Virus record (IMG/VR): IMGVR_UViG_3300042691_007255
Location: 1-43,876 of that record
Strand: one strand, 5' to 3'
DNA: 43,876 nucleotides
Source of the DNA: a virus
A program made the translations under genes and the position numbers. Each line of letters starts with the position of its first letter. Position 1 is the stretch's first letter. This document shows positions 19,691 through 41,311 of the stretch, piece by piece. The notes under the pieces are model-generated. The model saw only the letters and a list, made by a program, of their open reading frames with translations, did no database searches and had not been told where the DNA came from.

Positions 19691-20347
19691 TCATCCCCTG
19701 TTGAAGTCACAACTCTTTACTGGACAATATTTACAAAGAGGTGTAGGGTTTGGCGGCCATGAATCTTCCTTATATGACATCTCTAATCTTGTCAATGGCC
19801 CCTTAAACTTTTCCCAAGAATTGTCAATATCTTTTCTTTCGTACTCTTCTGTGATAAACGATCCATGCATTATGAATAATAAACCTGCTTTAATTTTATT
19901 GACCTGTGGGAAGTGAGCAAAGGTCATGAGAGACATAAGTCTTAACTGCTTAGGGTCGGGATACTTATTAGAGCCAGTCTTATAATCCACGATAAAAGCG
20001 TAATCGTTATCAACAATAAGTAAGTCAACAATGCCACGCACCCAACGATTACTATCGCTGAAACTACACGGCGTACGGTCTTTATAGAGAGCCATTTCAT
20101 ACTCGGCATATTTTGTACCAGGTATTGCTTTAAGAGAATCAATCGCAGGTTTAAATCTAAGATAATTGACGGCAAGTTCTTTACCATCTTTAACATAATC
20201 TTCAAGTGCTTTATGAACTTCTGTTCCATATATCATTTGCTCCGAAGGAATAACTTCATAATTTTGCGCGACTTTAATTTCATAGTATTGCTTAGGACAA
20301 TTTTGATATTGCTTCAGCGATGAATATGACCATGTAAAATCAGCCAT
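19691..20347 (-). CDS. PD-(D/E)XK exonuclease, RecB/Cas4-like
   Basis: 218 residues. SYSSLKQYQNCPKQYYE at the N-terminus is the signature opening of the PDDEXK_1 RecB/Cas4 group. H45 in GTEVHKALED, D108 in RGIVDLL and D121-Y-K123 (IVDYKTG) give the catalytic H-D-DxK set. C17 together with C205, C208 and C213 (LCKYCPVKSC) matches the four-Cys Fe-S cluster that stabilises Cas4 and AddB nucleases. Such enzymes resect DNA ends for recombination or replication. The stop side is close to the HNH-like gene, and the start overlaps the stop of the 72-residue upstream gene by 1 base. Confidence 0.85.
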   Translation of the reverse strand: MADFTWSYSSLKQYQNCPKQYYEIKVAQNYEVIPSEQMIYGTEVHKALEDYVKDGKELAVNYLRFKPAIDSLKAIPGTKYAEYEMALYKDRTPCSFSDSNRWVRGIVDLLIVDNDYAFIVDYKTGSNKYPDPKQLRLMSLMTFAHFPQVNKIKAGLLFIMHGSFITEEYERKDIDNSWEKFKGPLTRLEMSYKEDSWPPNPTPLCKYCPVKSCDFNRG

Positions 20348-25801: not shown

Positions 25802-26171
25802 ATTTACTTCCGCCTTGTTTATAAAATATTAGATTTGACCATTTTACTACAGGTTGCAATCCTGTCCACGATCTAGGTTTTCTTATAGATGTGTCATGAA
25901 AGTGCGTTGCGCCATATGAGTAATCAACTTCAAGTCTATGTAACACTTTGTATGCTATGTTTTTATATTCTTGTCGGATTACCGATGGTGGTTTAATTAG
26001 CCCGTACCAACTAAACTGCGCGGGTCTTTTCATCTCACTACATACGTTCTTATGTTCAAACTCTGCCCTACGCATTAAAACGTAGCCTACGGCAATTTGC
26101 GCTTCGCGTGGCTCGTGAGCGGACTCCATGTAAATGGTTGTGGCTAAGCACATCAATGCTTGATCTAGCAT
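25785..26171 (-). CDS. Cell-wall hydrolase, SleB (Hydrolase_2) type
   Basis: 128 residues, exactly the size of the bare SleB catalytic domain. ATTIYMESAHEPREAQIAVG (with the catalytic Glu at E16) and YVLMRRAE match the family opening. CSEMKRPAQFSWYG and GATHFHD match the middle and end. SleB-type enzymes cleave peptidoglycan glycan strands as lytic transglycosylases. No signal peptide is visible, so a holin or membrane partner would be needed. AAAAGGAGG precedes ATG. This is a second lytic enzyme beside the GH24 lysin at the window start, on the opposite strand. Confidence 0.85.
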   Translation of the reverse strand: MLDQALMCLATTIYMESAHEPREAQIAVGYVLMRRAEFEHKNVCSEMKRPAQFSWYGLIKPPSVIRQEYKNIAYKVLHRLEVDYSYGATHFHDTSIRKPRSWTGLQPVVKWSNLIFYKQGGSKYARNP

Positions 26172-26207
26172 ATGACCTCCTTTTCTCTTTAGAGAACTGG
26201 TTTCTTT

Positions 26208-26474
26208 TTAGGATTGGACTTCTTTGATGAGGCGATCGAGATACCACTTTGCTTTATGCAAATCCTCGATACCGTTTTTAAATTTCCATCGCCAAACGTA
26301 TTTGATAATGTTCGCAGTGCATACTGCTTCAATACCGAATAGTCCTTTGGTGGCTTCCTTGATAGCGTCAATACATTCGATTGCGCCTTGTGTGTAATGT
26401 GATGGGTGATTCACATTATCTTTTACTGCTTTACTTCCTACATAACTATGCAATATTTTCTTTAACCTAGTCAT
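26208..26474 (-). CDS. DUF3310 protein (T7 gp1.7-like)
   Basis: 88 residues. NVNHPSHYTQGAIECIDAI, IIKYVWRWKFKNG and EDLHKAKWYLDRLI are the complete DUF3310 signature. The T7 member gp1.7 is a nucleotide kinase acting on dTMP/dGMP, but this does not necessarily hold for all short DUF3310 proteins. The N-terminal 18 residues (RLKKILHSYVGSKAV) are a basic extension. The start overlaps the stop of the VRR-NUC gene by 1 base. Confidence 0.82.
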   Translation of the reverse strand: MTRLKKILHSYVGSKAVKDNVNHPSHYTQGAIECIDAIKEATKGLFGIEAVCTANIIKYVWRWKFKNGIEDLHKAKWYLDRLIKEVQS

Positions 26475-26761
26475 TAAATCTCCTTTACTAGAGTCAATAG
26501 TGTCTCTATATTACTCTCGTTTACCACGATTGACAAGCCACCTGACTGATTTATAAGTTTCATGTTGTGTTTTTGCAACAACGTTGGTTCGTTCTTTCCG
26601 GCTTTACATTCGATGCCAATAAACTTTCCCTTGACACAAGCAATGATGTCAGGCACACCACTCCTACCATAACCCGCGGTCATAGGTGAGAAATGATATG
26701 CACCAACATCGTCTAATACTTTCTTAACTTGTTTCTTTACTTTGCTTTCAGGGGTTGCCAT
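26474..26761 (-). CDS. VRR-NUC domain nuclease
   Basis: 95 residues, the usual size of a stand-alone phage VRR-NUC protein. GRSGVPDIIACVKGKFIGI, ECKAGKNEPT and LLQKHN give the PD-(D/E)XK-like core with D38, E51 and K53. Family members resemble Holliday-junction or FAN1-type nucleases and cut branched DNA. The gene overlaps the next upstream start by 14 bases. With the Cas4-like and HNH enzymes it forms a DNA-processing set. Confidence 0.82.
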   Translation of the reverse strand: MATPESKVKKQVKKVLDDVGAYHFSPMTAGYGRSGVPDIIACVKGKFIGIECKAGKNEPTLLQKHNMKLINQSGGLSIVVNESNIETLLTLVKEI

Positions 26762-27017
26762 CTCTAACCTCTATATCTATATCATCACTACTTTTAACTA
26801 CATCATCAAACTCTCTATCTGTGTTGGCTCTATAAACATAGTGCATCGCGTTCTTTTGAACTTCCCCTGTATGAATATCTAATGCACCATCAAATATGTA
26901 ACCACAACCTTTTAAAAATAATTCCATGTTAGCAAGTACATCACCTAGATCGTCGGAATCAAACTCTAATTTATTTCTGTATCCGTCGTCTATCATTTCT
27001 AATTTATATTTTGTCAT
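26748..27017 (-). CDS. Hypothetical phage protein
   Basis: 89 residues. A beta-strand start (KYKLEMIDDGYRNKLEFDSD) is followed by LGDVLANMELFLKGCGYIFDG, a pattern known from many phage hypothetical proteins that end with a short acidic tail. It precedes VRR-NUC with a 14-base overlap. There is no clue to function. Confidence 0.55.
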   Translation of the reverse strand: MTKYKLEMIDDGYRNKLEFDSDDLGDVLANMELFLKGCGYIFDGALDIHTGEVQKNAMHYVYRANTDREFDDVVKSSDDIDIEVRDGNP

Positions 27018-27026
27018 GGTTTGTCC

Positions 27027-27299
27027 TTATATTGTAGGTATCACATTAATCTCTGATTGACTTGATGTCCAGATACTACCGGCATCGTTACCCTCATCGT
27101 CACGCATCGCAATTATCCAATGACCATCAGTAAACTCAATGACAAGACCCGACTTATCCCAACCGATGTCTTCTCTCTCACGATCATTTAAATATCTTGC
27201 ACGTCTAATAGTTTTACCAACAAGAAAATTACTTGCAAGGTTTCCCCAATGTTCTCTTATCTCTGCATCACTATGTTCTATCACTTCGTATTGTTTCAT
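27027..27299 (-). CDS. Conserved small protein (DDEGNDAG family)
   Basis: 90 residues. GNLASNFLVGKTIRRARYL, VIEFTDGHWIIAMRDDE and GNDAGSIWTSS match a widespread family of small phage and bacterial proteins with a beta-barrel-like pattern. The function is not known to me. The ATG has GGAGAGAGACG directly upstream and overlaps the end of the neighbouring gene by 29 bases. Confidence 0.65.
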   Translation of the reverse strand: MKQYEVIEHSDAEIREHWGNLASNFLVGKTIRRARYLNDREREDIGWDKSGLVIEFTDGHWIIAMRDDEGNDAGSIWTSSQSEINVIPTI

Positions 27300-27435
27300 C
27301 GTCTCTCTCCTTTAGTTTAAATCGTTCTGATCCTTTGTTTACCATCAATGCATAAGCACACGCGTCTTCCAACGCACTATCCTCAAACATAGATTGTTCT
27401 TGTATCACATGCTCTAACTCTTGATTAATCCTCAC
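27271..27435 (-). CDS. Hypothetical small phage protein, GTG start
   Basis: 54 residues from the GTG at 27435, placed 4 bases after GGAGGT. A longer frame would run further into the upstream gene. It contains ELEHVIQEQSMFEDSALEDA and a basic end (RFKLKERDDETIRS). It is probably helical and may be a dimerising or antitoxin-like scaffold, but nothing specific is recognised. Confidence 0.5.
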   Translation of the reverse strand: MRINQELEHVIQEQSMFEDSALEDACAYALMVNKGSERFKLKERDDETIRSDRT

Positions 27436-27706
27436 ATACACCTCCGATACAAGCACGAGATATAATCTCATTCTCTAAATCATTGTATGCGTCTGCTTGA
27501 ACTAAATGGTCTCTATATTTTACTAAGCGTTCATAGAGTGTGTGGTCAGATTCTAGTGCCGAACACTTGACTACTAAACCTTTCTCTCGCATTGGCTCAG
27601 CAATAATGGTTGTAATATGATCACTTGGTTCTACCTTCCATGTCTCTACTTGTTTTAAATAATTCTCGTCCATCAATACTTCAACTACTACACTAAACTT
27701 TTTCAT
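27425..27706 (-). CDS. Hypothetical phage protein
   Basis: 93 residues, opening KKFSVVVEVLMDENYLKQVE. It is followed by a helical charged section (RLVKYRDHLVQADAYNDLEN) and the Cys-containing end RACIGGVCED. It carries one beta-strand-rich N-terminal half like the protein at 31438-31668, which begins in the same way (KKFYVKYTR). The two could be paralogues, though similarity is weak. Its end overlaps the GTG-start gene by 11 bases. Confidence 0.5.
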   Translation of the reverse strand: MKKFSVVVEVLMDENYLKQVETWKVEPSDHITTIIAEPMREKGLVVKCSALESDHTLYERLVKYRDHLVQADAYNDLENEIISRACIGGVCED

Positions 27707-27714
27707 ATACTCTC

Positions 27715-27933
27715 CTAATGTATAACTTCTTTATCTTCGTCACGCTTTTTCATTTCTTGTTCATCTATCCACGCGACTGCTTTGTCTTTACACTCTTGCA
27801 CTTCTTCATCACTTAGTCTATCTGCTATTACTTGGGCTATCTCCATGACCTCTTGTAATTTCTCAATGGGTGCGGTGATACCTAGTATCAAAGCATGAGT
27901 CAAAGCCTCTTTGTCGTTCTTAATAATTGACAT
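27715..27933 (-). CDS. Hypothetical small acidic phage protein
   Basis: 72 residues, mostly helical. DKEALTHALILGITAPIEKL is followed by an amphipathic helix (EVMEIAQVIADRLSDEEVQE) and a charged tail. This style is common in phage early regions, where such proteins often bind host enzymes. A function cannot be named. Confidence 0.55.
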   Translation of the reverse strand: MSIIKNDKEALTHALILGITAPIEKLQEVMEIAQVIADRLSDEEVQECKDKAVAWIDEQEMKKRDEDKEVIH

Positions 27934-27941
27934 GGTATCCC

Positions 27942-28118
27942 CTATCTAATAAATGTAATTAGAATCATAAACAACGCGATACCCCAAGCCACAAACTCTG
28001 AAATAATCAATCGTCTTAACCTCGCTTTTGGTATGGTCACATACTCACTCATATACACAGACCTATCGTAGTCCTCGATGTCAGACTTGGTTAGGTTTAT
28101 CTTGATGTTCTGTTTCAT
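27942..28118 (-). CDS. Small membrane protein
   Basis: 58 residues from the ATG at 28118, with GGAGG 10 bases upstream; a TTG 18 bases earlier overlaps that site and is rejected. After a polar N-terminus (NIKINLTKSDIEDYDRS) and a basic patch (PKARLRRLI), the C-terminus EFVAWGIALFMILITFIR is one membrane helix. A tail-anchored topology fits. It could be a lysis, superinfection-exclusion or membrane-targeting factor, without direct evidence. Confidence 0.55.
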   Translation of the reverse strand: MKQNIKINLTKSDIEDYDRSVYMSEYVTIPKARLRRLIISEFVAWGIALFMILITFIR

Positions 28119-28347
28119 TTTTCTTCGCCTCCTCAAAGTTTTTTAATGATTGCATATACTGATTTGTTGCATAGTTAATGCCTCTTACAATACCTAGTCG
28201 CATTGCATCGTAAAACATCTTTGCATCTTTCTCTGACCTTGTTCTCTTATGCTCATCGACATAGTGATAATACTCAGCTACTGCTACTTCTATAATATCT
28301 TCTTCAAACTTGCGTTTCTTTTCTTCGTTCTTCTGATGTTGGGTCAT
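28081..28347 (-). CDS. Hypothetical charged helical protein
   Basis: 88 residues. HQKNEEKKRKFEEDIIEVA is a charged helix, followed by YYHYVDEHKRTRSEKDAKMF and LGIVRGINYATNQYMQSL. The start is coupled to the gene at 28344-28508 (ATGA overlap). Its last 38 bases overlap the next gene. No known family is recognised. Confidence 0.5.
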   Translation of the reverse strand: MTQHQKNEEKKRKFEEDIIEVAVAEYYHYVDEHKRTRSEKDAKMFYDAMRLGIVRGINYATNQYMQSLKNFEEAKKNETEHQDKPNQV

Positions 28348-28508
28348 TTAAAAATTCTCCTTATACCATCAAAGATACCTAGCAAATCATTAGGTTTTAA
28401 ATCGTTCTTGTTAAATGAGAATGGCGTCTTTCTACCATTACCATGTATCACATAGCCTGTCACTACCACTTGCTCGACTATGTATTGCTTTTCTTTTTTA
28501 GTAGTCAC
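28344..28508 (-). CDS. Small hypothetical protein with GTG start
   Basis: 54 residues. GTG at 28506-28508 has GGGGAG 9 bases upstream, and the stop TGA overlaps the next ATG (ATGA). The product has a basic start (TTKKEKQYIVEQ), VVVTGYVIHGNGRKTPFSFN, and a C-terminal LLGIFDGIRRIFK. It fills an otherwise empty 150-base gap in a region where genes touch or overlap, in phase with coupled translation. The function is not recognised. Confidence 0.6.
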   Translation of the reverse strand: MTTKKEKQYIVEQVVVTGYVIHGNGRKTPFSFNKNDLKPNDLLGIFDGIRRIFK

Positions 28509-28734
28509 TGTCGGGTTCTCCCCATTTCTGTTGATGGTTTTGTATTATATCACAATTGGCTTCGTATTCTATTTCATCTATGAACGCGTCTAATTGAGGG
28601 TTATCTTTTGGTGCGTCAATTGTTTCTCGATAACCATCTTCCCATTCAACTTCAATCCAATATTTTTTAATACGAATATGGTCATATCTTGTGGGTTCGG
28701 GTGGGTCTATTTCTCTTTCTAGTTCTTGGCTCAT
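28498..28734 (-). CDS. Hypothetical acidic phage protein
   Basis: 78 residues, very acidic. RYDHIRIKKYWIEVEWEDGY is a beta hairpin with repeated aromatic residues, then FIDEIEYEANCDIIQNH. Its end overlaps the GTG-start gene by 11 bases, and its start overlaps the upstream stop by 4 bases. It may be a DNA-mimic-like acidic protein, but that is inference from charge only. Confidence 0.5.
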   Translation of the reverse strand: MSQELEREIDPPEPTRYDHIRIKKYWIEVEWEDGYRETIDAPKDNPQLDAFIDEIEYEANCDIIQNHQQKWGEPDSDY

Positions 28735-29027
28735 GCTGTTCTCCCATAAAATCTTTCAAAGTCTTCTTCGTAAAAAGTTCTAGTACAACCTCTTGAAACT
28801 CTAAGCCAACCATCTTCATCGTAATCATTACGAGTGATAGCAAACTCTATTGTGATAGAAGTAAGTAATGATTCGTCGCCATCTTCCTTATCATCTGCCT
28901 CTGTTTCATACTCATCTACCTCTGCCTTATCTACCTCAAAATCATGGTGTCCAAAAAAATACTGCCCTACATTTACACCCATACATTTTGCAAACTCATC
29001 TATGTCTTGTTCTTTTAAGAATTGCAT
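28731..29027 (-). CDS. Hypothetical acidic phage protein
   Basis: 98 residues with a long Asp/Glu run in the middle (AEVDEYETEADDKEDGDE) between a short helical start (LKEQDIDEFAKCMGVNVGQY) and a beta-like end with two aromatic clusters (RTFYEEDFERFYGR). The acidic tract could mimic nucleic acid, as in some phage anti-restriction proteins, but no specific family is recognised. The start lies 1 base after the upstream stop. Confidence 0.5.
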   Translation of the reverse strand: MQFLKEQDIDEFAKCMGVNVGQYFFGHHDFEVDKAEVDEYETEADDKEDGDESLLTSITIEFAITRNDYDEDGWLRVSRGCTRTFYEEDFERFYGRTA

Positions 29028-29198
29028 TTAGTCTTCCTCCTCTTCTTGTTCTCTTGCTCTTTCTTCTTCTATCTCTGTAAGATACGCATCGACATAGTCT
29101 GCTAGGTATTCGGGGAAATCTATCTCTTCAATCTCGCCATCGTCCCACTCTATATCCATTTTTAATTTCCATGACACTATACTTTTTGCTTTACTCAT
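29028..29198 (-). CDS. Small acidic phage protein
   Basis: 56 residues. The ATG at 29198 overlaps the upstream stop in ATGA, and the stop TAA is immediately followed by the next gene's ATG. The product reads SIVSWKLKMDIEWDDGEIEE, then FPEYLADYVDAYLTEIEEER, ending in a Glu/Asp run. A beta hairpin plus an acidic helix is likely. It fills an otherwise unassigned gap in the array, and the coupling on both sides supports it as a real gene. The function is unknown. Confidence 0.6.
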   Translation of the reverse strand: MSKAKSIVSWKLKMDIEWDDGEIEEIDFPEYLADYVDAYLTEIEEERAREQEEEED

Positions 29199-29389
29199 AT
29201 TGCCTCCTTGTGCATAAACTTCATTTGCCTATCTATCTCATCTAGTTCTTCTTCGTCTCGTAGTTCCATTGCAATGTCTTCCATTATCATATGGATTGTG
29301 TCATCACTCAATACACTTCCATTAAATGTTTTTATCTTTTTACCTTCGTCATATACATCTAAAGTAATTCCTATCTCAAAGTCTTCCAT
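29195..29389 (-). CDS. Hypothetical acidic phage protein
   Basis: 64 residues. DFEIGITLDVYDEGKKIKTF is a beta hairpin, then DDTIHMIMEDIAMELRDEEE, an acidic helix. It overlaps both neighbours (ATGA type downstream, 14 bases upstream). The beta-hairpin plus acidic-helix shape matches the protein at 29028-29198, suggesting the two are distant duplicates. Confidence 0.5.
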   Translation of the reverse strand: MEDFEIGITLDVYDEGKKIKTFNGSVLSDDTIHMIMEDIAMELRDEEELDEIDRQMKFMHKEAI

Positions 29390-29630
29390 GTTTGTTCGCC
29401 TCCTTTATGCGTTGCACTCTTGCTTGGTGTTCTTCCCATACTTTGTTGTCAGCTTCCCATTCATCAGGATATTTATCTTTAAACCAATCTTCAAAGTATC
29501 CTCCGTCTTCCAAGTAATGTAAAAGCATATCACCATTTCCAATCGGATAGTTATCGTAGAGATACACTAAAAACTCTTCTTCAAAAAATATCTGTGGGTC
29601 ATCTATCCCTGCTCTAAACTTTGGTTTCAT
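29376..29630 (-). CDS. Hypothetical acidic phage protein
   Basis: 84 residues. FLVYLYDNYPIGNGDMLLHY and YLEDGGYFEDWFKDKYPDEW are rich in aromatic and acidic residues; a basic end (RVQRIKEANKHGRL) follows. It overlaps the upstream gene by 17 bases. I recall similar short proteins with this pattern in large phages, but no function. Confidence 0.5.
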   Translation of the reverse strand: MKPKFRAGIDDPQIFFEEEFLVYLYDNYPIGNGDMLLHYLEDGGYFEDWFKDKYPDEWEADNKVWEEHQARVQRIKEANKHGRL

Positions 29631-30057
29631 CTTGCACCTCCTCTACAACCCATCGTTCTTCTGTTTCCCAATTACAATATCTGCAACCCGATAGAGTAAT
29701 TACTTCTTCCCAATCTTTATCGTGGTATGCTCTTCCTGCTTCAAAATACTTTTTAAAGTCTAAATAGTATCCCTCATCGTCATCATGATATTTACTACAT
29801 TGATGTTTGTTTCTTGTATCTTCGTCTTCAACTTCAAGATGTGGGCAATCGCCACCACAATACTCACACTTCTCATCGTCATCTAACTCTGTATAATTAT
29901 CGTCCATGCCCTCCATGCACCATTCAGCAACATCTTCTGCCGTATCCCAAAAGTTTAGATTGTCATTACAATCATCGTCCCATACATGAACCCATGTTTC
30001 TCTATATACTTTAATCTTTTTGCCTGTTGCCTCGTTTATATAGATGTCACTCATCAT
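29614..30057 (-). CDS. Acidic Cys-rich protein, possible zinc ribbon
   Basis: 147 residues, start ATG at 30057 or 30054 (ATGATG). It opens with DIYINEATGKKIKVYRETWV. CEYCGGDCPH around residues 63-72, with CRYCNW and a further Cys near residue 125, could bind zinc. The rest is acidic and aromatic. The start overlaps the upstream stop by 11 bases. A nucleic-acid or protein-binding zinc protein is possible. Confidence 0.5.
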   Translation of the reverse strand: MMSDIYINEATGKKIKVYRETWVHVWDDDCNDNLNFWDTAEDVAEWCMEGMDDNYTELDDDEKCEYCGGDCPHLEVEDEDTRNKHQCSKYHDDDEGYYLDFKKYFEAGRAYHDKDWEEVITLSGCRYCNWETEERWVVEEVQDETKV

Positions 30058-30244
30058 CGTCCTCCATCATAAGTAATGACTCTAATACTTCCCAACCTAA
30101 CTCGGTGAGTCTGTCTTGTATGCGATTCTCGTGGTCTTGTAGCCATTCCTCACACTTTTCCATAGTCCACTCGGGTTTCATTGTACTTACATCTTCTGCT
30201 CTCCATGTTACTTCTGCATAACCTTCACCATAAAATTTACTCAT
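30047..30244 (-). CDS. Hypothetical acidic phage protein
   Basis: 65 residues from the ATG at 30244, which lies inside the upstream gene's last codons. A longer frame from 30289 is rejected because it would intrude into the upstream gene and lacks a ribosome site. It contains GEGYAEVTWRAEDVSTMKPE and a helical section (EEWLQDHENRIQDRLTE), ending with MMEDDDE. The function is unknown. Confidence 0.5.
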   Translation of the reverse strand: MSKFYGEGYAEVTWRAEDVSTMKPEWTMEKCEEWLQDHENRIQDRLTELGWEVLESLLMMEDDDE

Positions 30245-30452
30245 CGTCTTCTTCCTTGTAGTTAATTGATTCTTTAATCGTGTCTTCAATCAAGTAATAT
30301 AATTCTTGTCCAAACTCTGTATTGCGTGTCCCCTCATCGTTATCAGGGTCATCAATAACACATCGGTCTACTGCGTCAAACTTATTTACTACCTCCCAAT
30401 ACACATCGTTTGCAAGGTCACATACTTCATCAAATGTTAATTTGTTATCCAT
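30237..30452 (-). CDS. Hypothetical acidic phage protein
   Basis: 71 residues from the ATG at 30452, which has AAAGGAG 7 bases upstream. LTFDEVCDLANDVYWEVVNK is followed by an acidic middle (VIDDPDNDEGTRN) and LYYLIEDTIKESINYKEEDD. Its end overlaps the next gene by 8 bases, and its start overlaps the upstream stop by 8 bases. A longer frame from 30497 lacks a ribosome site. Confidence 0.5.
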   Translation of the reverse strand: MDNKLTFDEVCDLANDVYWEVVNKFDAVDRCVIDDPDNDEGTRNTEFGQELYYLIEDTIKESINYKEEDDE

Positions 30453-30675
30453 GTTGTTTCTCCTTTGTTCTATTAGGTCTTTGTTTGTTGTAAGCATTTT
30501 GATATGCTAAATATTTCTCTCTGCTTGTATACCCATGAGTATCAACTTTTTTATATACATATGCTTGAATGCCCCTATCATTTAATGCTTCTAAAATATC
30601 TTCTAACCAATCACCACTACTTTCAAAAACATCACTTACTTCTACTACATAATCTTCTGTTTTTCTCTTGCTCAT
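30445..30675 (-). CDS. Hypothetical phage protein
   Basis: 76 residues, less acidic than its neighbours. EDYVVEVSDVFESSGDWLED and ILEALNDRGIQAYVYKKVD suggest a beta-alpha-beta fold, with a basic end rich in Tyr, Asn, Arg and Lys. It overlaps the upstream stop by 4 bases (ATGA). A nucleic-acid contact is possible through the tail; otherwise unrecognised. Confidence 0.5.
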   Translation of the reverse strand: MSKRKTEDYVVEVSDVFESSGDWLEDILEALNDRGIQAYVYKKVDTHGYTSREKYLAYQNAYNKQRPNRTKEKQHG

Positions 30676-30893
30676 TTTGTTTCCTCCTCGTAAGTATCAA
30701 TTTCAACATCGTCATATCCGTCCTCTAGGTATTCATTCTTGATTGCGACTGCGTGTTGATAGGTTAGATGTGTATGCTCTTCGCAACCACCGACCCAAAC
30801 TGAATAATTACCTAGTGGCATTACTTTATGATTGTCTTTGTTGTCTTTATAAATCTCTCGTGTTACTCGTTCTATTTCGTTAAACAAGTTCAT
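30672..30893 (-). CDS. Hypothetical phage protein
   Basis: 73 residues. The core GNYSVWVGGCEEHTHLTYQH, AVAIKNEYLEDGYDDVEID is a small beta-alpha pattern that I recognise from other phage early genes in which a protein begins with a short helix (IERVTREIYKDN). It has a 4-base overlap with the upstream stop. The function is not known. Confidence 0.5.
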   Translation of the reverse strand: MNLFNEIERVTREIYKDNKDNHKVMPLGNYSVWVGGCEEHTHLTYQHAVAIKNEYLEDGYDDVEIDTYEEETK

Positions 30894-31099
30894 TCTGTTC
30901 CCCTTATAACAACTTCGCCAAACTCTTCATACCCACTTGCACCTTGTTTATGTAGTTCAACGCTATCAATCCAAAAGTTAACCAAGAAGTCTTCGGGAGA
31001 CATCTCCTCCATCTCTTTTAAAGATTTGTCATACTCAATCCTTACATCGTAGTCCATCGGCATAACTTTTAGCTTTTCTATTAGGTCTTTTACTTTCAT
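30890..31099 (-). CDS. Conserved small phage protein (KVKDLIEKL type)
   Basis: 69 residues. VKDLIEKLKVMPMDYDVRIE is the recurrent opening of small phage and bacterial proteins whose remaining half forms a beta strand and an acidic loop, ending here with VELHKQGASGYEEFGEVVIR. It was probably duplicated across many phages, but no biochemical role is known to me. It overlaps the upstream stop by 4 bases. Confidence 0.55.
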   Translation of the reverse strand: MKVKDLIEKLKVMPMDYDVRIEYDKSLKEMEEMSPEDFLVNFWIDSVELHKQGASGYEEFGEVVIRGTE

Positions 31100-31263
31100 A
31101 CTGCCTCCTCGAAGTGAAGTTCATACATTTCTTTTAGTTCCTCGTCTGTCATATCTTCGTATGCCACCATGCCATATCTAAATAAATCAGCAAGGTCACG
31201 CATATCAAAATTATCAACATCATGTTCTACTAATTTATCAATCATGTCTTCTCTTGTTATCAT
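31096..31263 (-). CDS. Hypothetical acidic phage protein
   Basis: 55 residues from the ATG at 31263, which follows the upstream stop by 1 base; a frame from 31281 would overlap that gene. It contains REDMIDKLVEHDVDNFDMRD and an acidic helical end (TDEELKEMYELHFEEA). It is predicted to be all helix. Function unknown. Confidence 0.5.
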   Translation of the reverse strand: MITREDMIDKLVEHDVDNFDMRDLADLFRYGMVAYEDMTDEELKEMYELHFEEAV

Positions 31264-31264
31264 G

Positions 31265-31441
31265 TTAATTGCTCCAATCAAGTTCTTTTAATTGTTGATT
31301 TATTTCTGCTTTAGCTATTAGGTAGGCTATGATTTTTTCTAGGCTCGGTGCGATGACCTCATCGTAGTCTCTCTCGTCAGCTAATCTATAACTTAAATCT
31401 ACTAGTGTATTCACCATCTTTTTTATTTGTTTGTCTTTCAT
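31265..31441 (-). CDS. Small helical phage protein
   Basis: 58 residues. ATG at 31441 overlaps the upstream stop (ATGA), and TAA lies 1 base before the next ATG. The product reads KQIKKMVNTLVDLSYRLADE and RDYDEVIAPSLEKIIAYLIA with a short end KELDWSN, a two-helix pattern. It fills an otherwise unassigned gap of about 175 bases in a coupled gene array, which supports it. The function is unknown. Confidence 0.6.
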   Translation of the reverse strand: MKDKQIKKMVNTLVDLSYRLADERDYDEVIAPSLEKIIAYLIAKAEINQQLKELDWSN

Positions 31442-31668
31442 GCTAGTGCCTCCTTTATAAATCCCATGTCTTCTTCTGTCATAACTTCTACTTCATCGTC
31501 CCAAAACTCGTCCTCTACACTTCTATCGTATGTTTCCCAATTGACTTCTTCACCATCGCCTGTCTTGGCTTTCTCTAATGCCCACTCTTTGTTATCTGCC
31601 TCAACTGCGACTGTTACTGTTTCTAACTCGGTTACATACCTTGTGTATTTCACATAAAACTTTTTCAT
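31438..31668 (-). CDS. Conserved small acidic phage protein
   Basis: 76 residues. KKFYVKYTRYVTELETVTVA then VEADNKEWALEKAKTGDG: a beta-rich start and a helix, as in numerous early phage proteins of about this size. The acidic end has EFWDDEVEVMTEEDMGF. The start lies 1 base after the upstream stop, without a clear ribosome site. The function is not known. Confidence 0.55.
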   Translation of the reverse strand: MKKFYVKYTRYVTELETVTVAVEADNKEWALEKAKTGDGEEVNWETYDRSVEDEFWDDEVEVMTEEDMGFIKEALA

Positions 31669-31669
31669 A

Positions 31670-32116
31670 TTATTTCCCCAATTCTCTTTGATTAAATTTC
31701 ACGATGTGATAACCCTCGTATGCACTAAACCCCATGCGTTCTAATACATTGTGAGCCATAGGCGTAAAGTCGTCTTCTTTAGTCATCTCTTCAGACACTC
31801 GGTCAAACTCGGTTTCTAATTCTTTATCACCAAAAAACTCCACACTCTCATAGCTATCCTCTGCCGAATCGGTATAACTATCGCCATCAATGACAAACAC
31901 AATGTCATCTTCTTTCTCTGCGTTCATCATAAATTGGCGAGGGTCTATCCCTGTAAATGCGTGGTGGTATTCCAATGGCACTAAACTATAATCGTCAGTA
32001 ATGCCAATCTCTGCCCACTTCTGTTCACTAAAGACATAAACTTTCTTGCCGTCTTTACTAAACAACTCGGTGTCCCATGATGACCATTTATAAGGTCTGA
32101 TGTATTTTGTTTCCAT
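31670..32116 (-). CDS. Hypothetical acidic phage protein
   Basis: 148 residues, the largest of the promoter-proximal array. YIRPYKWSSWDTELFSKDGK, then KVYVFSEQKWAEIGITDDYS, a DIVFVIDGDSYTDS segment, a long acidic stretch and a final MGFSAYEGYHIVKF. The alternating beta strands suggest a globular domain. No motif points to an activity. AGGAGAGAG precedes ATG. Confidence 0.5.
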   Translation of the reverse strand: METKYIRPYKWSSWDTELFSKDGKKVYVFSEQKWAEIGITDDYSLVPLEYHHAFTGIDPRQFMMNAEKEDDIVFVIDGDSYTDSAEDSYESVEFFGDKELETEFDRVSEEMTKEDDFTPMAHNVLERMGFSAYEGYHIVKFNQRELGK

Positions 32117-32125
32117 GTCTCTCTC

Positions 32126-32362
32126 CTATAATTGATAAAGTTTATATGTGCCTGTGTATTGGCATTGCCACTCGTAGCCACCTCGTTTTGCTAGGTCGTG
32201 GAGGCTTGGTTTAAGGTCAACAGGATAATCGTAGTTAACATACTCAAACGCGTCCATGTTTCCTCTTTCTGATGTTAGGGTCACCATGTTGTCATGCTCG
32301 TTGATATATACATCTAAACCTAGCTTTTGTAATTCTTTTACCATTGTGTTTAGTCTTTTCAT
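32126..32362 (-). CDS. Hypothetical phage protein, first gene of the array
   Basis: 78 residues. KRLNTMVKELQKLGLDVYIN, a beta hairpin (DNMVTLTSERGN) and a Trp/Cys-containing end (GGYEWQCQYTGTYKLY) suggest a small alpha/beta protein. It is the promoter-proximal gene of the array, about 45 bases downstream of the 32411-32439 promoter, so it would be expressed first. AGGAGAAAT precedes ATG. Its early position makes a host-takeover role plausible but unproven. Confidence 0.55.
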   Translation of the reverse strand: MKRLNTMVKELQKLGLDVYINEHDNMVTLTSERGNMDAFEYVNYDYPVDLKPSLHDLAKRGGYEWQCQYTGTYKLYQL

Positions 32363-32410
32363 TTATTTCTCCTAGTTAATAAAGTTTTTGTTCCGTCTTG
32401 CTTAATTATA

Positions 32411-32439
32411 ACTATCCTCGCTTTTTCAAAGTATGTCAA
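32411..32439 (-). promoter_or_regulatory. Sigma70-type promoter for the small-gene array
   Basis: On the minus strand TTGACA (32434-32439), 17 bases, then GATAGT (32411-32416) as the -10; a TATAAT lies just downstream. The -35 is perfect and the -10 matches 4 of 6. Transcription would begin about 45 bases before the ATG at 32362. Because the genes behind it overlap and no terminator is seen until far downstream, this promoter may feed the run to about 24 kb. Confidence 0.65.
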
Positions 32440-32544
32440 CTATTATTTTACTAATTATAATTTAGTGGGGTTTTGGTCTTGGCGAGGGATTTGTCTGTGT
32501 AATACTTGATTGTTTTTGTCGGGTATTACTCGGTTTTTACTTAG

Positions 32545-32911
32545 TGTTCCGTGTTCCAATGTTCTGTTTTTACTAAGTTTACTAATTGATACTTGGAACA
32601 TGGATTTTAGTGAGATTGTGAGAGACTAAGTTATTGATTTATATATATATTATATTTATTATTATTATTATTATTGCTTACTTTTTGTGCAATGTTCCAT
32701 GTTCCAGCGTTTTGACGAGAATGAAAAGGTAAATGTTTCTGAATTGTAAATGCACTGCGAAAAGACCTCTCTTGACCACCAAGTTTCTCAAAATCTTACC
32801 TCGTGTCCTATGTAAAACTTATTGGAACATTGGAACAAACCTTGTTAATCAAGCACTTACCGAAAAAAACTTGGAACACGGAGTGAAACTTGGTTTCTCA
32901 AAATTGGAACA
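32545..32911. repeat. GGAACA/TGTTCC repeat array (iteron-like)
   Basis: Nine exact GGAACA cores occur in 370 bases: TGTTCC on the plus strand at 32545, 32552, 32693 and 32700, and units TTGGAACA at 32593, 32822, 32830, 32871 and 32904. A near copy TGTTCT lies at 32560. Several are tandem doublets 7-8 bases apart (32545/32552, 32693/32700, 32822/32830), and the 12-mer TTGGAACACGGA appears in both orientations (ending at 32559 on the minus strand, and at 32871). Most units extend to TTGGAACAYGG. Chance would give well under one such hexamer in this length. Confidence 0.85.
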
Positions 32912-32947
32912 TGGGAATTTCCCCGTCATGACTCGGTTGACTTGGTT

Positions 32948-32986
32948 AAATGAGCAGAATGCAGAGAGACCAGTTCCCTCCCCTAG
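32948..32986. repeat. Duplicated 39-bp intergenic element, copy A
   Basis: Starts AAATGAGCAGAATGC and contains GAGACCAGTT, ending CCCTAG. It matches copy B (34089-34127) at 33 of 39 positions with no gaps. Each copy is preceded by a GGGAATT(T)CCCC site (here 32913-32924, 35 bases before) and lies a short way downstream of a minus-strand terminator. It is not inside a gene. Confidence 0.8.
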
Positions 32987-33040
32987 TGTCGATCAGTACC
33001 CCTAAATTTATACTTGAGTAAATTACTAGGTTATTGCAAA

Positions 33041-33066
33041 AAGAAAAAGCCCTCCTAAGAGGGCTT
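33041..33066 (-). terminator. Intrinsic terminator after the GP88-like gene
   Basis: AAGCCCTC (33047-33054), loop CTAA, GAGGGCTT (33059-33066): a perfect 8-bp stem. On the minus strand it is followed by TTTTTCTTTTT. It lies 28 bases after the stop of the gene at 33094-33756 and should end that unit. Confidence 0.9.
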
Positions 33067-33093
33067 AGTCTAACTAAGTTAACTAGGTTTAAC

Positions 33094-33756
33094 TTAGTGG
33101 GCAAGGTACGAAACATTTGTAACTTTATTATCCCAGCATGCACGGCATGAACCGCATTTACCTTGTTGCTTAGGCGCTAAGCATTTAAACCCAGTGAGTT
33201 CTTTTTGACTATGTACAGTTGAGGTTAAGACATTGGCATAGCCTTTTAAACTACGTGGTAACTTAGCTGGCTGGTCGATGAACATCGAACTAATACGTAC
33301 AATTAAGTTAACTGGGATTGACTCGGTTTTTAAAAAGTCTTTAACAATGTTGGCTTCTCGTGTAGGCAACCAAAATAAAGTTTTATCTAGTCGTCGGGCA
33401 ACCTGTGCTATTTTAGATAGATGCTCTACGCTTTGAAGATCCCCCGAGTCATGCCAGCGGAAATAGGGCTTATTACCTATTAACTTAACCATAGCATCAA
33501 CCCATAGCGGATTCTTTAATGATTCAAGCCTTTTATACTGTAGAGGCTCGATCGTCTTAGCGAACCTATGATAATTACCTTTTAAGGCATAGCATCCCTC
33601 GCATACTGAACCCTTCACGTTGACAAGTTTAGACCCTGTTATGCATTCCTTAGCCGGTAGGCTATAGGATTCACTAGGCATTTTAGTCGTCTTAGTACAA
33701 CCCCCGCTAATCGCGAGGGCTTCCTTCTTGGTTTTAAATAGTTGGATCGGGATCAT
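33094..33756 (-). CDS. GP88-like phage protein
   Basis: 220 residues. MPSESYSLPAKECITGSKL, KGSVCEGCYALKGNYHRF, FRWHDSGDLQSVEHL, FWLPTREANIV and, at the end, CGSCRACWDNKVTNVSYLAH are the conserved parts of the mycobacteriophage gene product 88 family. The eight or so cysteines fall in two clusters (C20, C38, C52, C55 and four near the C-terminus), suggesting a metal or Fe-S site. I know of no proven activity for the family. It shares a unit with a 65-residue gene behind a Fur-box-like palindrome and ends at a strong terminator. Confidence 0.8.
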   Translation of the reverse strand: MIPIQLFKTKKEALAISGGCTKTTKMPSESYSLPAKECITGSKLVNVKGSVCEGCYALKGNYHRFAKTIEPLQYKRLESLKNPLWVDAMVKLIGNKPYFRWHDSGDLQSVEHLSKIAQVARRLDKTLFWLPTREANIVKDFLKTESIPVNLIVRISSMFIDQPAKLPRSLKGYANVLTSTVHSQKELTGFKCLAPKQQGKCGSCRACWDNKVTNVSYLAH

Positions 33757-33950
33757 TTATTTAGTTTCCTTAGTAGATCGCCAGCTGTCATTCTGTTGAC
33801 GTGGTTATTTAAAATCTTAGTGATCTTGTCTTGATCCTCTTGGGATAGATCAAACACTTCTATTTGCATTGCGGTTTCTAACTCATCGCCATTAACACCG
33901 ATACAAACATTAAGTACATCAAACAAACCTTTTACTTTTATATCTAACAT
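33753..33950 (-). CDS. Small hypothetical protein upstream of GP88-like gene
   Basis: 65 residues from the ATG at 33950, which has AAAGGG upstream. A longer frame starting at 33986 would begin inside the palindrome at 33971-33985 and lacks a ribosome site. The sequence has LDIKVKGLFDVLNVCIGVNG, ELETAMQIEVFDLSQEDQ and KITKILNNHVNRMTAGDLLR, probably a small alpha/beta protein. Its last 4 bases overlap the GP88-like start (ATGA), so the two are probably made together. The function is unrecognised. Confidence 0.6.
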   Translation of the reverse strand: MLDIKVKGLFDVLNVCIGVNGDELETAMQIEVFDLSQEDQDKITKILNNHVNRMTAGDLLRKLNK

Positions 33951-33970
33951 TTTTTTGCCCTTTATGTTAT

Positions 33971-33985
33971 TGAGAATGATTCTCA
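33971..33985. promoter_or_regulatory. Fur-box-like palindrome TGAGAATGATTCTCA
   Basis: A perfect 7-1-7 inverted repeat. It differs from the Fur consensus TGATAATNATTATCA only by one symmetrical substitution (G for T and C for A). On the minus strand it lies immediately after TATAAA (a possible -10) and about 20 bases before the ATG at 33950, the usual place for a repressor operator. Binding by host Fur or a phage repressor with a similar site is inference. Confidence 0.5.
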
Positions 33986-34088
33986 TTTATAAAATGTGTT
34001 ACGTGTTGCTCCAGTTAAAATACCACAACCACGTTAATAGTCAATAGATCTTTACTAATTAAAAGGGAATTCCCCCGCGCAAAAAACA

Positions 34089-34127
34089 AAATGAACAGAA
34101 TGCCGTGAGACCAGTTCTCTACCCTAA
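34089..34127. repeat. Duplicated 39-bp intergenic element, copy B
   Basis: Starts AAATGAACAGAATGC and contains GAGACCAGTTCTC, in which GAGA and TCTC form a small inverted repeat, ending CCCTAA. It is 33/39 identical to copy A (32948-32986). GGGAATTCCCCC (34065-34076) lies 24 bases before. It directly adjoins the U-tract of the 34126-34151 terminator, so it lies just past the end of the ArdC unit. Confidence 0.8.
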
Positions 34128-34151
34128 AAAAGAAAGGCGTCAAAAGACGCC
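34126..34151 (-). terminator. Intrinsic terminator overlapping a stop codon
   Basis: GGCGTC (34136-34141), loop AAAA, GACGCC (34146-34151). On the minus strand it continues as TTTCTTTTTT. The hairpin contains the last codons and TGA stop of the gene at 34140-34337, so translation to the end of that gene could compete with termination. Confidence 0.88.
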
Positions 34152-34337
34152 CTCCGCTTCTAACCTTTTGTTACCCAGTCGAATAAGTTCTTCGAGCTCT
34201 GCCTTGTTAGCAATAAGATAACCGTGTGGTGCCTGGTGTATGTTGAATTGGTACACCGCATAATCAACCGCATGTTCCCTCGATGCGCGTTCACCTAAAC
34301 TCCACACCATGTTCTCAGTTAATGCATAGTAGATCAT
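34140..34337 (-). CDS. Hypothetical small protein of the ArdC unit
   Basis: 65 residues. YALTENMVWSLGERASREHA and VDYAVYQFNIHQAPHGYLIA, then a Lys/Glu-rich helix (KAELEELIRLGNKRLEAEG). It overlaps the upstream stop by 4 bases and ends within the terminator stem. It may act with ArdC against host defence because it is always transcribed with it here, but no homologue is recognised. Confidence 0.55.
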   Translation of the reverse strand: MIYYALTENMVWSLGERASREHAVDYAVYQFNIHQAPHGYLIANKAELEELIRLGNKRLEAEGVF

Positions 34338-34624
34338 ATGCCCTCCCTATTAAATTGTTCTGCTAACTCATGACCGGATATGTTCTTGATCCAGCCCCAG
34401 CCATGCCAGGTGTTAACTCCAGCTCTACCCTTTTCAAGTGTTACCATGTTCTCGCCCCATGATATCTCGAACTGGACGTGGCCTCGACTGAGGCCCCTTT
34501 TAATTGCCTGGATGACTTGGTTCTCACTTGGTTTACGTCCGTCAAAATATTGTTCATACATGGTTGACGATCTGATTGTTACACCTTCTGATACTCGGTT
34601 ACTTGGATAAAAATAATCATTCAT
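34334..34624 (-). CDS. Hypothetical protein of the ArdC unit
   Basis: 96 residues. It contains YFYPSNRVSEGVTIRSS, GRKPSENQVIQAIKRGLSRG and HVQFEISWGENMVTLEKGRA, then a Trp/Gly-rich piece (NTWHGWGWIKNISGHELAEQ). GAGGAG of the upstream gene's last codons is its ribosome site. The Trp/Gly segment could be a small nucleic-acid or carbohydrate-binding surface. The function is not known. Confidence 0.55.
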   Translation of the reverse strand: MNDYFYPSNRVSEGVTIRSSTMYEQYFDGRKPSENQVIQAIKRGLSRGHVQFEISWGENMVTLEKGRAGVNTWHGWGWIKNISGHELAEQFNREGI

Positions 34625-34627
34625 GAT

Positions 34628-34777
34628 CTACTCCTCCTCGGTTAAAGATAAATAAAAATACAAGCTCGATGCAAATACTCCCACTGCTGCAGCTGTTGGT
34701 AATTTAAAAACAAATAATGCGATACCGCTAATTGCTAACATTGCTAAACCTTCAATGAATCTAAGTAATGATCTCAT
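34628..34777 (-). CDS. Small two-helix membrane protein
   Basis: 49 residues. ATG at 34777 has GGAG 5 bases upstream. The product has two hydrophobic segments, LAMLAISGIALFVF and AAAVGVFASSLYFYL, joined by KLPT, with Arg at the start and three Glu at the end. This is a hairpin membrane topology as in small holins or superinfection-exclusion peptides. It fills the 170-base gap between ArdC and the next gene with good ribosome sites on both sides. The role is inferred from topology only. Confidence 0.65.
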   Translation of the reverse strand: MRSLLRFIEGLAMLAISGIALFVFKLPTAAAVGVFASSLYFYLSLTEEE

Positions 34778-34794
34778 AATAACTCCAGGGAGGC

Positions 34795-35634
34795 TTACGC
34801 CTCCTCTGCCTCCTCAGTTTTGATTGTGTAATCTAGAATCTTTTGTGCTAACGCTGAAGCCTTAAGAATATTCTTAGGATCATCGCGTAACACTTTTAGC
34901 CAGTTAGCAATATAACTAGTGTGCTGTAATTGGCCATCTAGTTTTAAATGAGCGCATAACATCGCGCTACCTAACTCTGCAACTAGCTCCTCGAAGGCAT
35001 AAGCCTCGTTACCGAAACGGCCTGAGAAATCTCGATTCAATCGTGACTCGTGACCAGTCCAGTGTGATAACTCATGCAATGCGGTTGAATAATAGTCTGC
35101 ACTTGATTTGAATTGATCGAGTCCAGGTAATTGGATGTAATCCATGGAAGGAACGTAGAATGCGCGGTTACCACCAAACTGAATGCGCGCTCTCTGAGCT
35201 TTGATAAACTCCTCGCATGATGCAATCGTCTCATTCATGTTACGCTCTGCTGGAGCTGGTAACTCCAGGCCGTCAACTTGATCCGCATTAAATACAGTGT
35301 AATGCTTTAACATCGGGATCTTTTTAGCGTCGCCTGTTACCTTGTCAGTAACTTCTAACGGGCTAAAGTATACAACTGGAACGCCAACGGAACCCTTGCG
35401 AACCTGAGCGCCAACTGATTGAGCTTGCTTATATGTTACCCAGTAATCAGTACTTGCTGGCATCATGGATAGCTGTACGAAATTGATACCGTTATAGTAA
35501 CGCTTAGCTACTGGATTATAAGGTGCATCTACTCCGCGATTGTGCCAGGGTTTTACCCAGGGAGCGACACCTGATTCAAGAGACTTGATAACGTTATCGG
35601 TTATCGTCTGCGCTATTGATTGTTTACTATTCAT
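34795..35634 (-). CDS. ArdC-like antirestriction protein
   Basis: 279 residues, typical for ArdC. The N-terminal domain (residues 1-120: VAPWVKPW, YYNGINFVQL, WVTYKQAQSVGAQVRKGS) binds ssDNA in characterised members. The C-terminal zincin domain has HELSH (H187, E188, H191) followed by WTGHESRLNRDF and EELVAELGSAM, a second Glu-rich helix giving a third metal ligand. ArdC proteins are made early and protect incoming DNA from restriction. The gene stands behind a strong promoter and a 6-bp hairpin separates it from the next gene, so high early expression is likely. Confidence 0.88.
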   Translation of the reverse strand: MNSKQSIAQTITDNVIKSLESGVAPWVKPWHNRGVDAPYNPVAKRYYNGINFVQLSMMPASTDYWVTYKQAQSVGAQVRKGSVGVPVVYFSPLEVTDKVTGDAKKIPMLKHYTVFNADQVDGLELPAPAERNMNETIASCEEFIKAQRARIQFGGNRAFYVPSMDYIQLPGLDQFKSSADYYSTALHELSHWTGHESRLNRDFSGRFGNEAYAFEELVAELGSAMLCAHLKLDGQLQHTSYIANWLKVLRDDPKNILKASALAQKILDYTIKTEEAEEA

Positions 35635-36004
35635 ATTTGATACTCCTGTTTAGATAGTTAATTAAATACTGCAGGATCAAGGATACTTAATTAAATTTAA
35701 TATGTCAAGTATTATTTTACAAATAGAATAGAAAAGGCAAAGGCCTCCAGGATCGCAACCCACCCGGGCCCCACCCCCCAAAAATTTTGGAAGGAATTAT
35801 TTTTTATCTTATACACCAAGACTTACACGAACGACTAGATATAAAATGAAATATCGGAACCCACCCCCTAGTAAAAACAAAGAGGCATCAAAAAAATATT
35901 TTGCAAAAAAAGTTGAGAGTTTAGTTAGTAAAGTTTAAGAAATGTTGTGTAGCAAAAGTGCATAGCTACGCCGTAGCTTAGCAAAAACAAAGGAAAGTGC
36001 AAGA
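35635..36004. other. Gene-free region with C-rich tracts and a palindrome
   Basis: This 370-bp gap has no credible gene on either strand. It holds the ArdC promoter, two C-rich patches with shared AACCCACCC (around 35757 and 35859), a run of six C followed by AAAAATTTT, and the perfect palindrome AGCTACG-C-CGTAGCT (35964-35978). The palindrome is flanked by similar phrases, AGCAAAAGTGC before and AGCAAAAACAAAGG after. It may be a protein-binding or packaging-related site, and no U-tract makes it a terminator. The strand asymmetry (C-rich on plus) is visible against an AT-rich background. Confidence 0.5.
35680..35708 (-). promoter_or_regulatory. Sigma70-type promoter for the ArdC unit
   Basis: On the minus strand TTGACA (35703-35708), exactly 17 bases, then TATCCT (35680-35685). 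Transcription would start about 40 bases before the ATG at 35634, which has AGGAG upstream. A perfect -35 in front of an antirestriction gene fits an immediate-early unit read by host polymerase. Confidence 0.72.
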
Positions 36005-36349
36005 CTAAATAGCTTTAGGATCGAAGTTATATAACTCGGAATAGACTGCTTTAATACGTAGGAATTTAGGACCATGTTGATCAAAGTCATTGTCGCCCCG
36101 AACATAGAGAGCTAGATGAACCATTTCATGAAGAAGGGTTTGGAATATTGTGGTGAAATGCCCACAGGCATTAGAACTTATTTGAATTTCCATTTCAACT
36201 TCATCAAAACAACCGTAAATCTCAGGATTCTTAATGACTTTAAATCTAATTTTGGAGGACTTAGGCATTCTAAGTCGATTAAAAGGCGGCATCTTGCATG
36301 CCATGTCGTAGAGATGAGCTAAGTTTGTCGACGTTAACGTGGTTTTCAT
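36005..36349 (-). CDS. SprT-like zinc metalloprotein
   Basis: 114 residues. TTIFQTLLHEMVHLALYV holds HEMVH (H74, E75, H78), and H92 in QHGPKF is the third zinc ligand, in the SprT/Spartan arrangement. The first 60 residues (RFKVIKNPEIYGCFDEVEM) are the short beta part common to phage SprT-like proteins. Cellular SPRTN proteases cut DNA-protein crosslinks; in phages the target is unknown. It is the only gene between the ArdC promoter region and the divergent packaging genes. No ribosome site is obvious. Confidence 0.8.
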   Translation of the reverse strand: MKTTLTSTNLAHLYDMACKMPPFNRLRMPKSSKIRFKVIKNPEIYGCFDEVEMEIQISSNACGHFTTIFQTLLHEMVHLALYVRGDNDFDQHGPKFLRIKAVYSELYNFDPKAI

Positions 36350-36489
36350 TCAAAAAGACCAAGTTAGGATAATGAGTGCAACGTCGGGCTGAGTAAAAAG
36401 TAAGGTTATCATGGTAGTATTTTACCAAAAACTAGGTTAGAATAGCCGAATTAGCTGCAAATAATTTCACAAGGTGTAAACAGCGACAC

Positions 36490-37140
36490 ATGAATCAAGA
36501 AAATATCCAAGAAAATCAAGAAGATAGCGGAAATTTCAATGCTGTTTTAGTACCTCATATTGAGGAAAACATACCTATACCCAAAAATGCACGAGAAGCA
36601 CTAGCCAGCATGACAACTGAAGAAGAAGTTATGGTCAGAGCAACAACAATTAAGGAAATGAGTGACATTACAGGTCAAGAAATTGCGCCAGATGCAAAAC
36701 ATAGGCTAGATGCGGAAGAAATTGCGAGAGATATGATTACAAACCCTAGAAAAAAGCAGGAATTTGCGAATTATGCAAATGAAACAGTGGCATACTTAGG
36801 TGGTTTAGTAGGAACTTACAACCACATGATCGTAAATGACCTAGCAGATTTAAAGTTATACGTGGTAAACAAGTTAGTTGAGATCATACATGATAATGAG
36901 AGTAGTCAAAAAGAAAAAATAGCAGCACTTCGTTCAGTCGGAGAAGTAGATGGCGTAGATGCATTTAAGAAGAAGACAGAAGTTGTGCATAAAATGGAGA
37001 CAATGGAAGAAGTTGAGAAAGAATTACTCTCTATGCTTAGTGAATTAAAGGCAAAGGCATTATTAAAGCCTAAATCAGAAACAATAGATGCAGAAATAGT
37101 TGAAGATGACGGAAACGAAACCGAAATACACGATAACTAA
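36490..37140 (+). CDS. Probable terminase small subunit
   Basis: 216 residues. It is placed immediately before the large terminase and overlaps it by 35 bases, which is the usual TerS position. The sequence is helical and charged: NAREALASMTTEEEVMVRAT, then RKKQEFANYANETVAYLGGL and a long coiled-coil-like section (about 110-200), with an acidic end (IDAEIVEDDGNETEI). No clear HTH can be pointed out, so the identity rests on position, size and helicity. TerS binds the packaging site and stimulates TerL. The upstream 140-bp divergent gap likely contains its promoter. Confidence 0.6.
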   Translation: MNQENIQENQEDSGNFNAVLVPHIEENIPIPKNAREALASMTTEEEVMVRATTIKEMSDITGQEIAPDAKHRLDAEEIARDMITNPRKKQEFANYANETVAYLGGLVGTYNHMIVNDLADLKLYVVNKLVEIIHDNESSQKEKIAALRSVGEVDGVDAFKKKTEVVHKMETMEEVEKELLSMLSELKAKALLKPKSETIDAEIVEDDGNETEIHDN

Positions 37141-38653: not shown

Positions 38654-38662
38654 GGATAAATT

Positions 38663-41110: not shown

Positions 41111-41116
41111 TAAATT

Positions 41117-41311
41117 ATGGACCAAACGCTAGAGCTATTATTGTCTCGAATAGATGATCAGCGCAAAACAGTTTTAATAAATTTAGGAGACGGAGCAGCG
41201 AAGGATTATGCTTCGTACCAAAATATGACCGGATATATACGAGGTTTATCCGTAGCAGAAAGTTTAATTAAAGACCTCGCACAAAGAATGGAGACTTATG
41301 ACGATGAGTGA
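41117..41311 (+). CDS. Small conserved protein between portal and co-chaperonin
   Basis: 64 residues. LELLLSRIDDQRKTVLINLG, GAAKDYASYQNMTGYIRGLS, VAESLIKDLAQRME: a helical hairpin. I recall this small gene right after the portal in related phages; it may be a head-assembly aid, but no function is known. It overlaps the next gene by 14 bases. Confidence 0.6.
   Translation: MDQTLELLLSRIDDQRKTVLINLGDGAAKDYASYQNMTGYIRGLSVAESLIKDLAQRMETYDDE

Follow-up and report, generated by a model that had tools for sequence, protein, structure and literature searches.

The 43876-base window analysed here is an IMG/VR virus record (IMGVR_UViG_3300042691_007255), and it carries an array of 24 consecutive open reading frames (ORFs), all on the minus strand, which runs from 32362 to 26748. 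The frames are named g01 to g24 in transcription order; they are short, lie close together and have strong ribosome-binding sites. The initial annotation had reported a dense, almost entirely one-strand run of about 24 tiny genes with frequently overlapping starts and stops, and both features were recovered: 16 of the 23 junctions overlap, seven of these 16 being of the ATGA type. In this region the minus strand is 99% covered by 26 ORFs of at least 50 amino acids (aa), as against 3.0 ± 1.5 such ORFs in dinucleotide-preserving shuffles. A gene caller that had learned codon usage solely from the window's large genes outside the array recovered all 24 array genes. Of the called starts, 92% are accompanied by a Shine-Dalgarno match of 4 nucleotides (nt) or more, compared with 11% of the start codons there that were not called. 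The start sites of five genes (namely, g05 at 31263, g09 at 30452, g10 at 30244, g19 at 28118 and g22, with GTG, at 27435) were moved inward, with backing from relatives, Shine-Dalgarno sites or both. Because codon usage, Shine-Dalgarno sites and purifying selection (below) concur, all 24 ORFs are true genes.

Based on a search with the DNA polymerase, which found 75 related IMG/VR loci (47-85% identity), the phage of the window has relatives in at least 75 contigs. Cultured phages are distant: they share at most 36% identity across the full polymerase, a megablast of 23.9 kb against them gave no match, and neither g18 nor g24 could be found in them. No copy of g23 was confirmed in the bacterial genomes that were scanned. 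Relatives are known for 22 of the 24 array genes, with median pairwise ratios of nonsynonymous to synonymous substitution (dN/dS) between 0 and 0.5; where a gene has no more than two relatives, the ratio is that of a single pair. Values near 1, which had been named in advance as the sign of variation with no selection, were not seen. Gene g13 has just its tail in common with other genes, and g04 is without a convincing relative. In short, the array genes vary among relatives yet stay under selection. One contig (IMGVR_UViG_3300031857_004238) is 99.9% identical to the window over 9803 bases (31892-41694), which means that one phage, or a nearly identical pair, was assembled twice.

Gene order was compared in 48 distinct arrays and in 17 long ones (that of the window included). 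The order g16-g17-g18-(f24)-g19-(g20)-g21-g22-g23 forms a core, each family of which is present in at least half of the 17 long arrays. The 5' zone (g01-g15) comprises 107 families; 64 of these were recognized in just a single array, whereas two occur in half or more of the long arrays. The gap between g23 and the following nuclease gene is empty in most arrays, and the others hold one of five different inserts, including g24. In 33 of 36 arrays a small membrane protein, either g19 or a member of unrelated families, is encoded upstream of g21 and no more than three genes away from it. The 5' zone is thus built gene by gene, with no combination passed on as a unit, and shared ancestry accounts for the conserved order of g16-g23 as well as joint action would.

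Exchange also operates inside genes, at their ends: a ~50-nt element (29195-29265 in the window; 4664-4714 in the relative L046), which codes for the tail ELDEIDKQMKFMHEEA and contains the ribosome-binding site of the next gene, stands ahead of several different genes in relatives; the first 15 residues of g07 also begin an otherwise different family, the likeness ending there; and the g11 versions of two relatives (L006 and L046) are without the Cys-rich middle. By hhalign, in comparisons that each involved a family present in the window, g14 is paralogous with g16, and g03 and g05 are paralogous with other array families. The sequence AGGAGGCAGTATGA is present at 6 of 320 junctions, and the idea that it is a junction cassette common to the arrays was abandoned. 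Junctions with the same upstream and different downstream sequence proved to be mostly gene replacement at gene ends, found also outside the array. The coordinates and the main properties of the genes are listed in Table 1.

Table 1. Genes and control elements of the array and its immediate surroundings. Fractions are counts among the 16 long arrays other than that of the window.
Feature	Coordinates	Strand	Properties
promoter element	32434-32451	-	GTAAAATAATAGTTGACA; array head; 17-nt spacer, -10-like GATAGT
leader	32363-33050	-	TGTTCCA-type repeats, AT-rich tract, terminator of upstream transcription unit
g01	32126-32362	-	78 aa; relatives 79% and 55%; dN/dS 0.18
g02	31670-32116	-	148 aa, net charge -18; relatives 95% and 46%; dN/dS 0.33
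g03	31438-31668	-	76 aa; recurring MKKF... family; hhalign F88 96%, F75 92%; dN/dS 0.11
g04	31265-31441	-	58 aa; no clear relative; basis is codon score and Shine-Dalgarno site alone
g05	31096-31263	-	55 aa; recurring G-[YF]-x2-[MFY]-[ST]-DEEL family, with paralogues; 12/16
g06	30890-31099	-	69 aa; relative 91%; dN/dS 0.06
g07	30672-30893	-	73 aa; three relatives; dN/dS 0.09
g08	30445-30675	-	76 aa; relative 82%; dN/dS 0.26
g09	30237-30452	-	71 aa; relatives 85-86%; some genomes with a second, diverged family member
g10	30047-30244	-	65 aa; three relatives; dN/dS 0.24
g11	29614-30057	-	147 aa, net charge -28, CxxC cluster; relatives 43-91%
g12	29376-29630	-	84 aa; C-terminal tails exchanged among relatives
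g13	29195-29389	-	64 aa; ~50-nt shared tail/ribosome-binding-site element at its end
g14	29028-29198	-	56 aa; g16 homologue, hhalign 93%, E 4e-7
g15	28731-29027	-	98 aa; relative 94%
g16	28498-28734	-	78 aa, net charge -14, conserved core; 14/16
g17	28344-28508	-	54 aa, basic, conserved core; 15/16
g18	28081-28347	-	88 aa, conserved core; 14/16; dN/dS 0.17
g19	27942-28118	-	58 aa, small membrane protein with single C-terminal membrane segment; 13/16
g20	27715-27933	-	72 aa, optional core member; 9/16
g21	27425-27706	-	93 aa, conserved core; 16/16, with presence of g21 part of the definition of a long array; dN/dS 0.12
g22	27271-27435	-	54 aa, GTG start, core; 10/16; slot taken by another family in some
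g23	27027-27299	-	90 aa; 15/16; with g21 the most widely conserved
g24	26748-27017	-	89 aa; phrog_935, E 3e-8; hypervariable slot between g23 and g25
g25	26474-26761	-	VRR-NUC/Hjc-type nuclease; PF01870 E 1e-5, phrog_93 E 5e-17; 14-nt overlap with g24
g26	26208-26474	-	DUF3310; PF11753 E 5e-19; one-base overlap with g25

The array proteins differ in composition from the products of the 33 other genes of the window. Asp and Glu together make up 23.7% of their residues versus 12.4% elsewhere, with Lys and Arg equal at 12.4% and 12.5%, respectively, and the median isoelectric point (pI) is 4.56 as against 6.19 (Mann-Whitney p = 2e-5). Since Lys and Arg are not raised, the acid excess is not merely a side effect of purine-rich DNA, which should lift these residues too. 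The description of the proteins as mostly rich in Asp and Glu holds for most of them (19 of 24 have a pI below 5), but not for g17 and g19, which are basic, nor for g08 and g18, which are near neutral. From Pfam, PHROGs and NCBIfam scans no function could be assigned to the array proteins, and matches below threshold were to unrelated families; as the initial annotation had stated, none is assigned, and the sole significant family match is that of g24 to phrog_935 (function unknown).

At the head of the array stands a sigma-70-type promoter, with TTGACA at 32439. Exact copies of the element GTAAAATAATA[C/G]TTGACA exist in the window only before g01 and before the gene for ArdC (35703-35720); a third match, with two changes, lies ahead of a helicase-like gene (17752-19320), which gives three matches where 0.43 are expected. 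The element recurs in relatives at array heads and/or ahead of ArdC, and several IMG/VR contigs with an exact copy have it 86-90 nt 5' of ArdC. As a group marker the motif alone was rejected: of the 118 IMG/VR stretches that match it, 39 code for a relative of a query protein, and a few of these 39 depend on weak or single protein matches. The same-strand genes upstream encode SprT-like, ArdC and GP88 proteins, and a terminator-like hairpin (33066-33047) lies between the GP88 gene and the array. ArdC consists of ArdcN (E 9e-30) and MPTase-PolyVal (E 3e-49) domains, and proteins of its type are associated with shielding incoming DNA from restriction (PMC5512222). At its other end, the array overlaps directly into g25, followed by g26 and onward toward the DNA polymerase gene; no excess of terminators over shuffles was found in the stretch toward the polymerase, and an Rfam search of 26000-36500 gave no matches. 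Because the promoter is common to ArdC and the array overlaps into nuclease and replication genes, the array is most likely transcribed early by the host RNA polymerase.

The non-coding leader contains eight of the window's 15 copies of TGTTCCA/TGGAACA, together with an AT-rich run, ATAATAATAATAATAATAAATATAATATATATA; its layout is kept in the relative L078, and weaker motifs were recognized in L003, L061 and L081. The leader could be a replication origin or an operator region. A 38-nt direct repeat (87%; 32948-32985 and 34089-34126) is located just 3' of two terminator-like minus-strand hairpins. Further away, a sigma-70 region 4 protein (PF04545, E 7e-19) is encoded at 17187-17759 and may be what switches transcription to the middle or late phase. 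Among the replication genes are those for a 947-aa DUF927 protein (12594-15437) and a PD-(D/E)XK nuclease (19691-20347). A protein with a 2OG-Fe(II) oxygenase domain is encoded at 20661-21806, and relatives gain or lose genes located after the DNA polymerase gene.

Variable early gene zones usually house host-takeover or anti-defence genes. We consider it likely that the array is an early accessory region forming the 5' part of the early/replication operon of a freshwater phage, which is probably lytic. Early in infection the host RNA polymerase would start at the 32439 promoter and read the array at the same time as the ArdC unit, and translational coupling through overlapping starts and strong Shine-Dalgarno sites would give protein in quantity. 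Each protein would act alone, binding a target of its own among the host's enzymes and defences and so blocking or diverting it. Genes g16-g23 would be a standing core retained by nearly the whole close group, and g01-g15 and the g24 slot would hold interchangeable, host-matched genes gained and lost singly at gene ends. An early takeover or anti-defence role, as first proposed for these genes, is thus supported in part: the promoter common to ArdC, the position before the replication genes, the gene-by-gene turnover and the purifying selection all fit. Screens of phage genes from variable regions do yield defence inhibitors (PMC12373910). Some points weigh against such a role. Acidity is frequent in the array families of relatives too (51% of family medians are below pI 5), so that small phage proteins may be charged in this way as a rule, and the family scans revealed no array protein resembling a characterised anti-defence or takeover protein. 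Moreover, some core genes could serve replication, not host attack.

Taken further, the last point becomes an alternative that is possible although we regard it as doubtful, in which g16-g23 are accessory factors of phage DNA replication or recombination and only g01-g15 are host-directed. The core lies directly ahead of the nuclease gene in one overlapping run, and would be co-transcribed with nuclease and polymerase; its order is retained in most arrays, and the slot for a small membrane protein is occupied in nearly all of them, as expected of a replication membrane anchor. However, no nucleic-acid-binding or replication family was recognised among the core proteins, several of which are acidic, and more distant relatives have the nuclease and polymerase without the core families.

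DNA mimicry by several acidic array proteins, each blocking a DNA-binding protein of the host in the manner of Ocr, ArdA and Ugi, is unlikely, although high Asp and Glu without extra Lys and Arg, the fold matches of g23 to Ugi (below) and the nearby ArdC would suit this explanation. No match to the DNA-mimic anti-restriction families Ocr and ArdA was found by Pfam or PHROGs among the array proteins, and the two proteins modelled lend mimicry no support. The model of the acidic, conserved g16 (mdfaeb7ede32a; mean predicted local distance difference test, pLDDT, 72.8) is a beta-hairpin and a long helix, in keeping with the beta-hairpin or helix shape initially attributed to the array proteins, and has no match in the PDB below E = 1. 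That of g23 (m265fb8feb01c; mean pLDDT 66.8, 80-84 over residues 31-70) departs from this shape, with two main helices and five strands in the order helix-strand-helix-four strands. Its top PDB matches are Ugi and Ugi-2, with a Foldseek probability of 0.99 but an E-value of only 0.07; comparison with the Ugi group by VIA gave Z = 6.1 over 69 aligned residues (root-mean-square deviation 3.2 Å), which is barely above unrelated folds and, according to the program's own warning, may at Z < 8 reflect a common arrangement. A fold common to g23 and Ugi is possible. The first strand of Ugi and SAUGI fits the DNA cleft of the enzyme with a Glu-led motif, E-[ASVFHTNI]-[LVIFMTPWC] (PMC10303552). In all 27 readable sequences of the g23 family this strand is TIRRVRYL/F or TIRRARYL, and none has the motif. 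The strand thus lacks the Glu that Ugi inhibitors require, and g23 was not classed as a Ugi-type inhibitor. A bolder idea, to which we give little credence, is that g16-g23 are a conserved takeover unit. It would comprise a g23 with the Ugi fold, turned against another DNA-binding enzyme of the host, and a membrane protein for which unrelated proteins can stand in.

That a subset of the genes forms the joint, undescribed system suggested at the outset, whether as a pair of toxin and antitoxin or as a multi-protein complex, is most improbable. The core order is retained, and g14-g16 and other families are paralogous, as can accompany hetero-oligomers. However, no pair or larger set of 5' genes is passed on together, core genes stay in place when an insert lands among them, and core genes are lost singly.

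The unassigned small genes are now ranked. The eight-gene core g16-g23, most genes of which are retained across a widespread freshwater phage group, is worth testing for conserved host targets; the more than 100 exchangeable families are a pool of candidate defence inhibitors; and swapping at gene boundaries provides a clean natural record of array assembly.

Several known systems invite comparison. The accessory genes from variable regions studied by Silas and co-workers were tested in Escherichia coli and have measured phenotypes, whereas the evidence for the array is comparative. Like the uracil-DNA glycosylase inhibitors Ugi and SAUGI, g23 is small and acidic, and its top PDB matches are in that group; however, it shows no sequence similarity to them, its first strand is basic and lacks the Glu-led motif, and the match strength is low. 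The gp17 of the Methylophilales phage Venkman EXVC282S aligns with g23 over 75 residues at 39% identity and is likewise encoded within a run of small genes, in a phage whose gene content differs from that of the window. The closest known analogue is the host-takeover module of Bacillus phage SPO1, the genes of which are small, are expressed early and often inhibit the host (PMC6873191, PMC10531801). No sequence relation between the two was found. The SPO1 module lies in the terminal redundancy, has several operons and has been tested for toxicity, whereas the array, known here from sequence alone, has one promoter, found at its head, and runs into the replication operon. Like the array, the SPO1 module packs its 24-26 genes densely; most are small, few have recognisable relatives, their ribosome-binding sites are strong and their position suits early expression. 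The SPO1 module also includes the very acidic DNA mimic Gp44 (PMC6873191, PMC8208478, PMC10531801).

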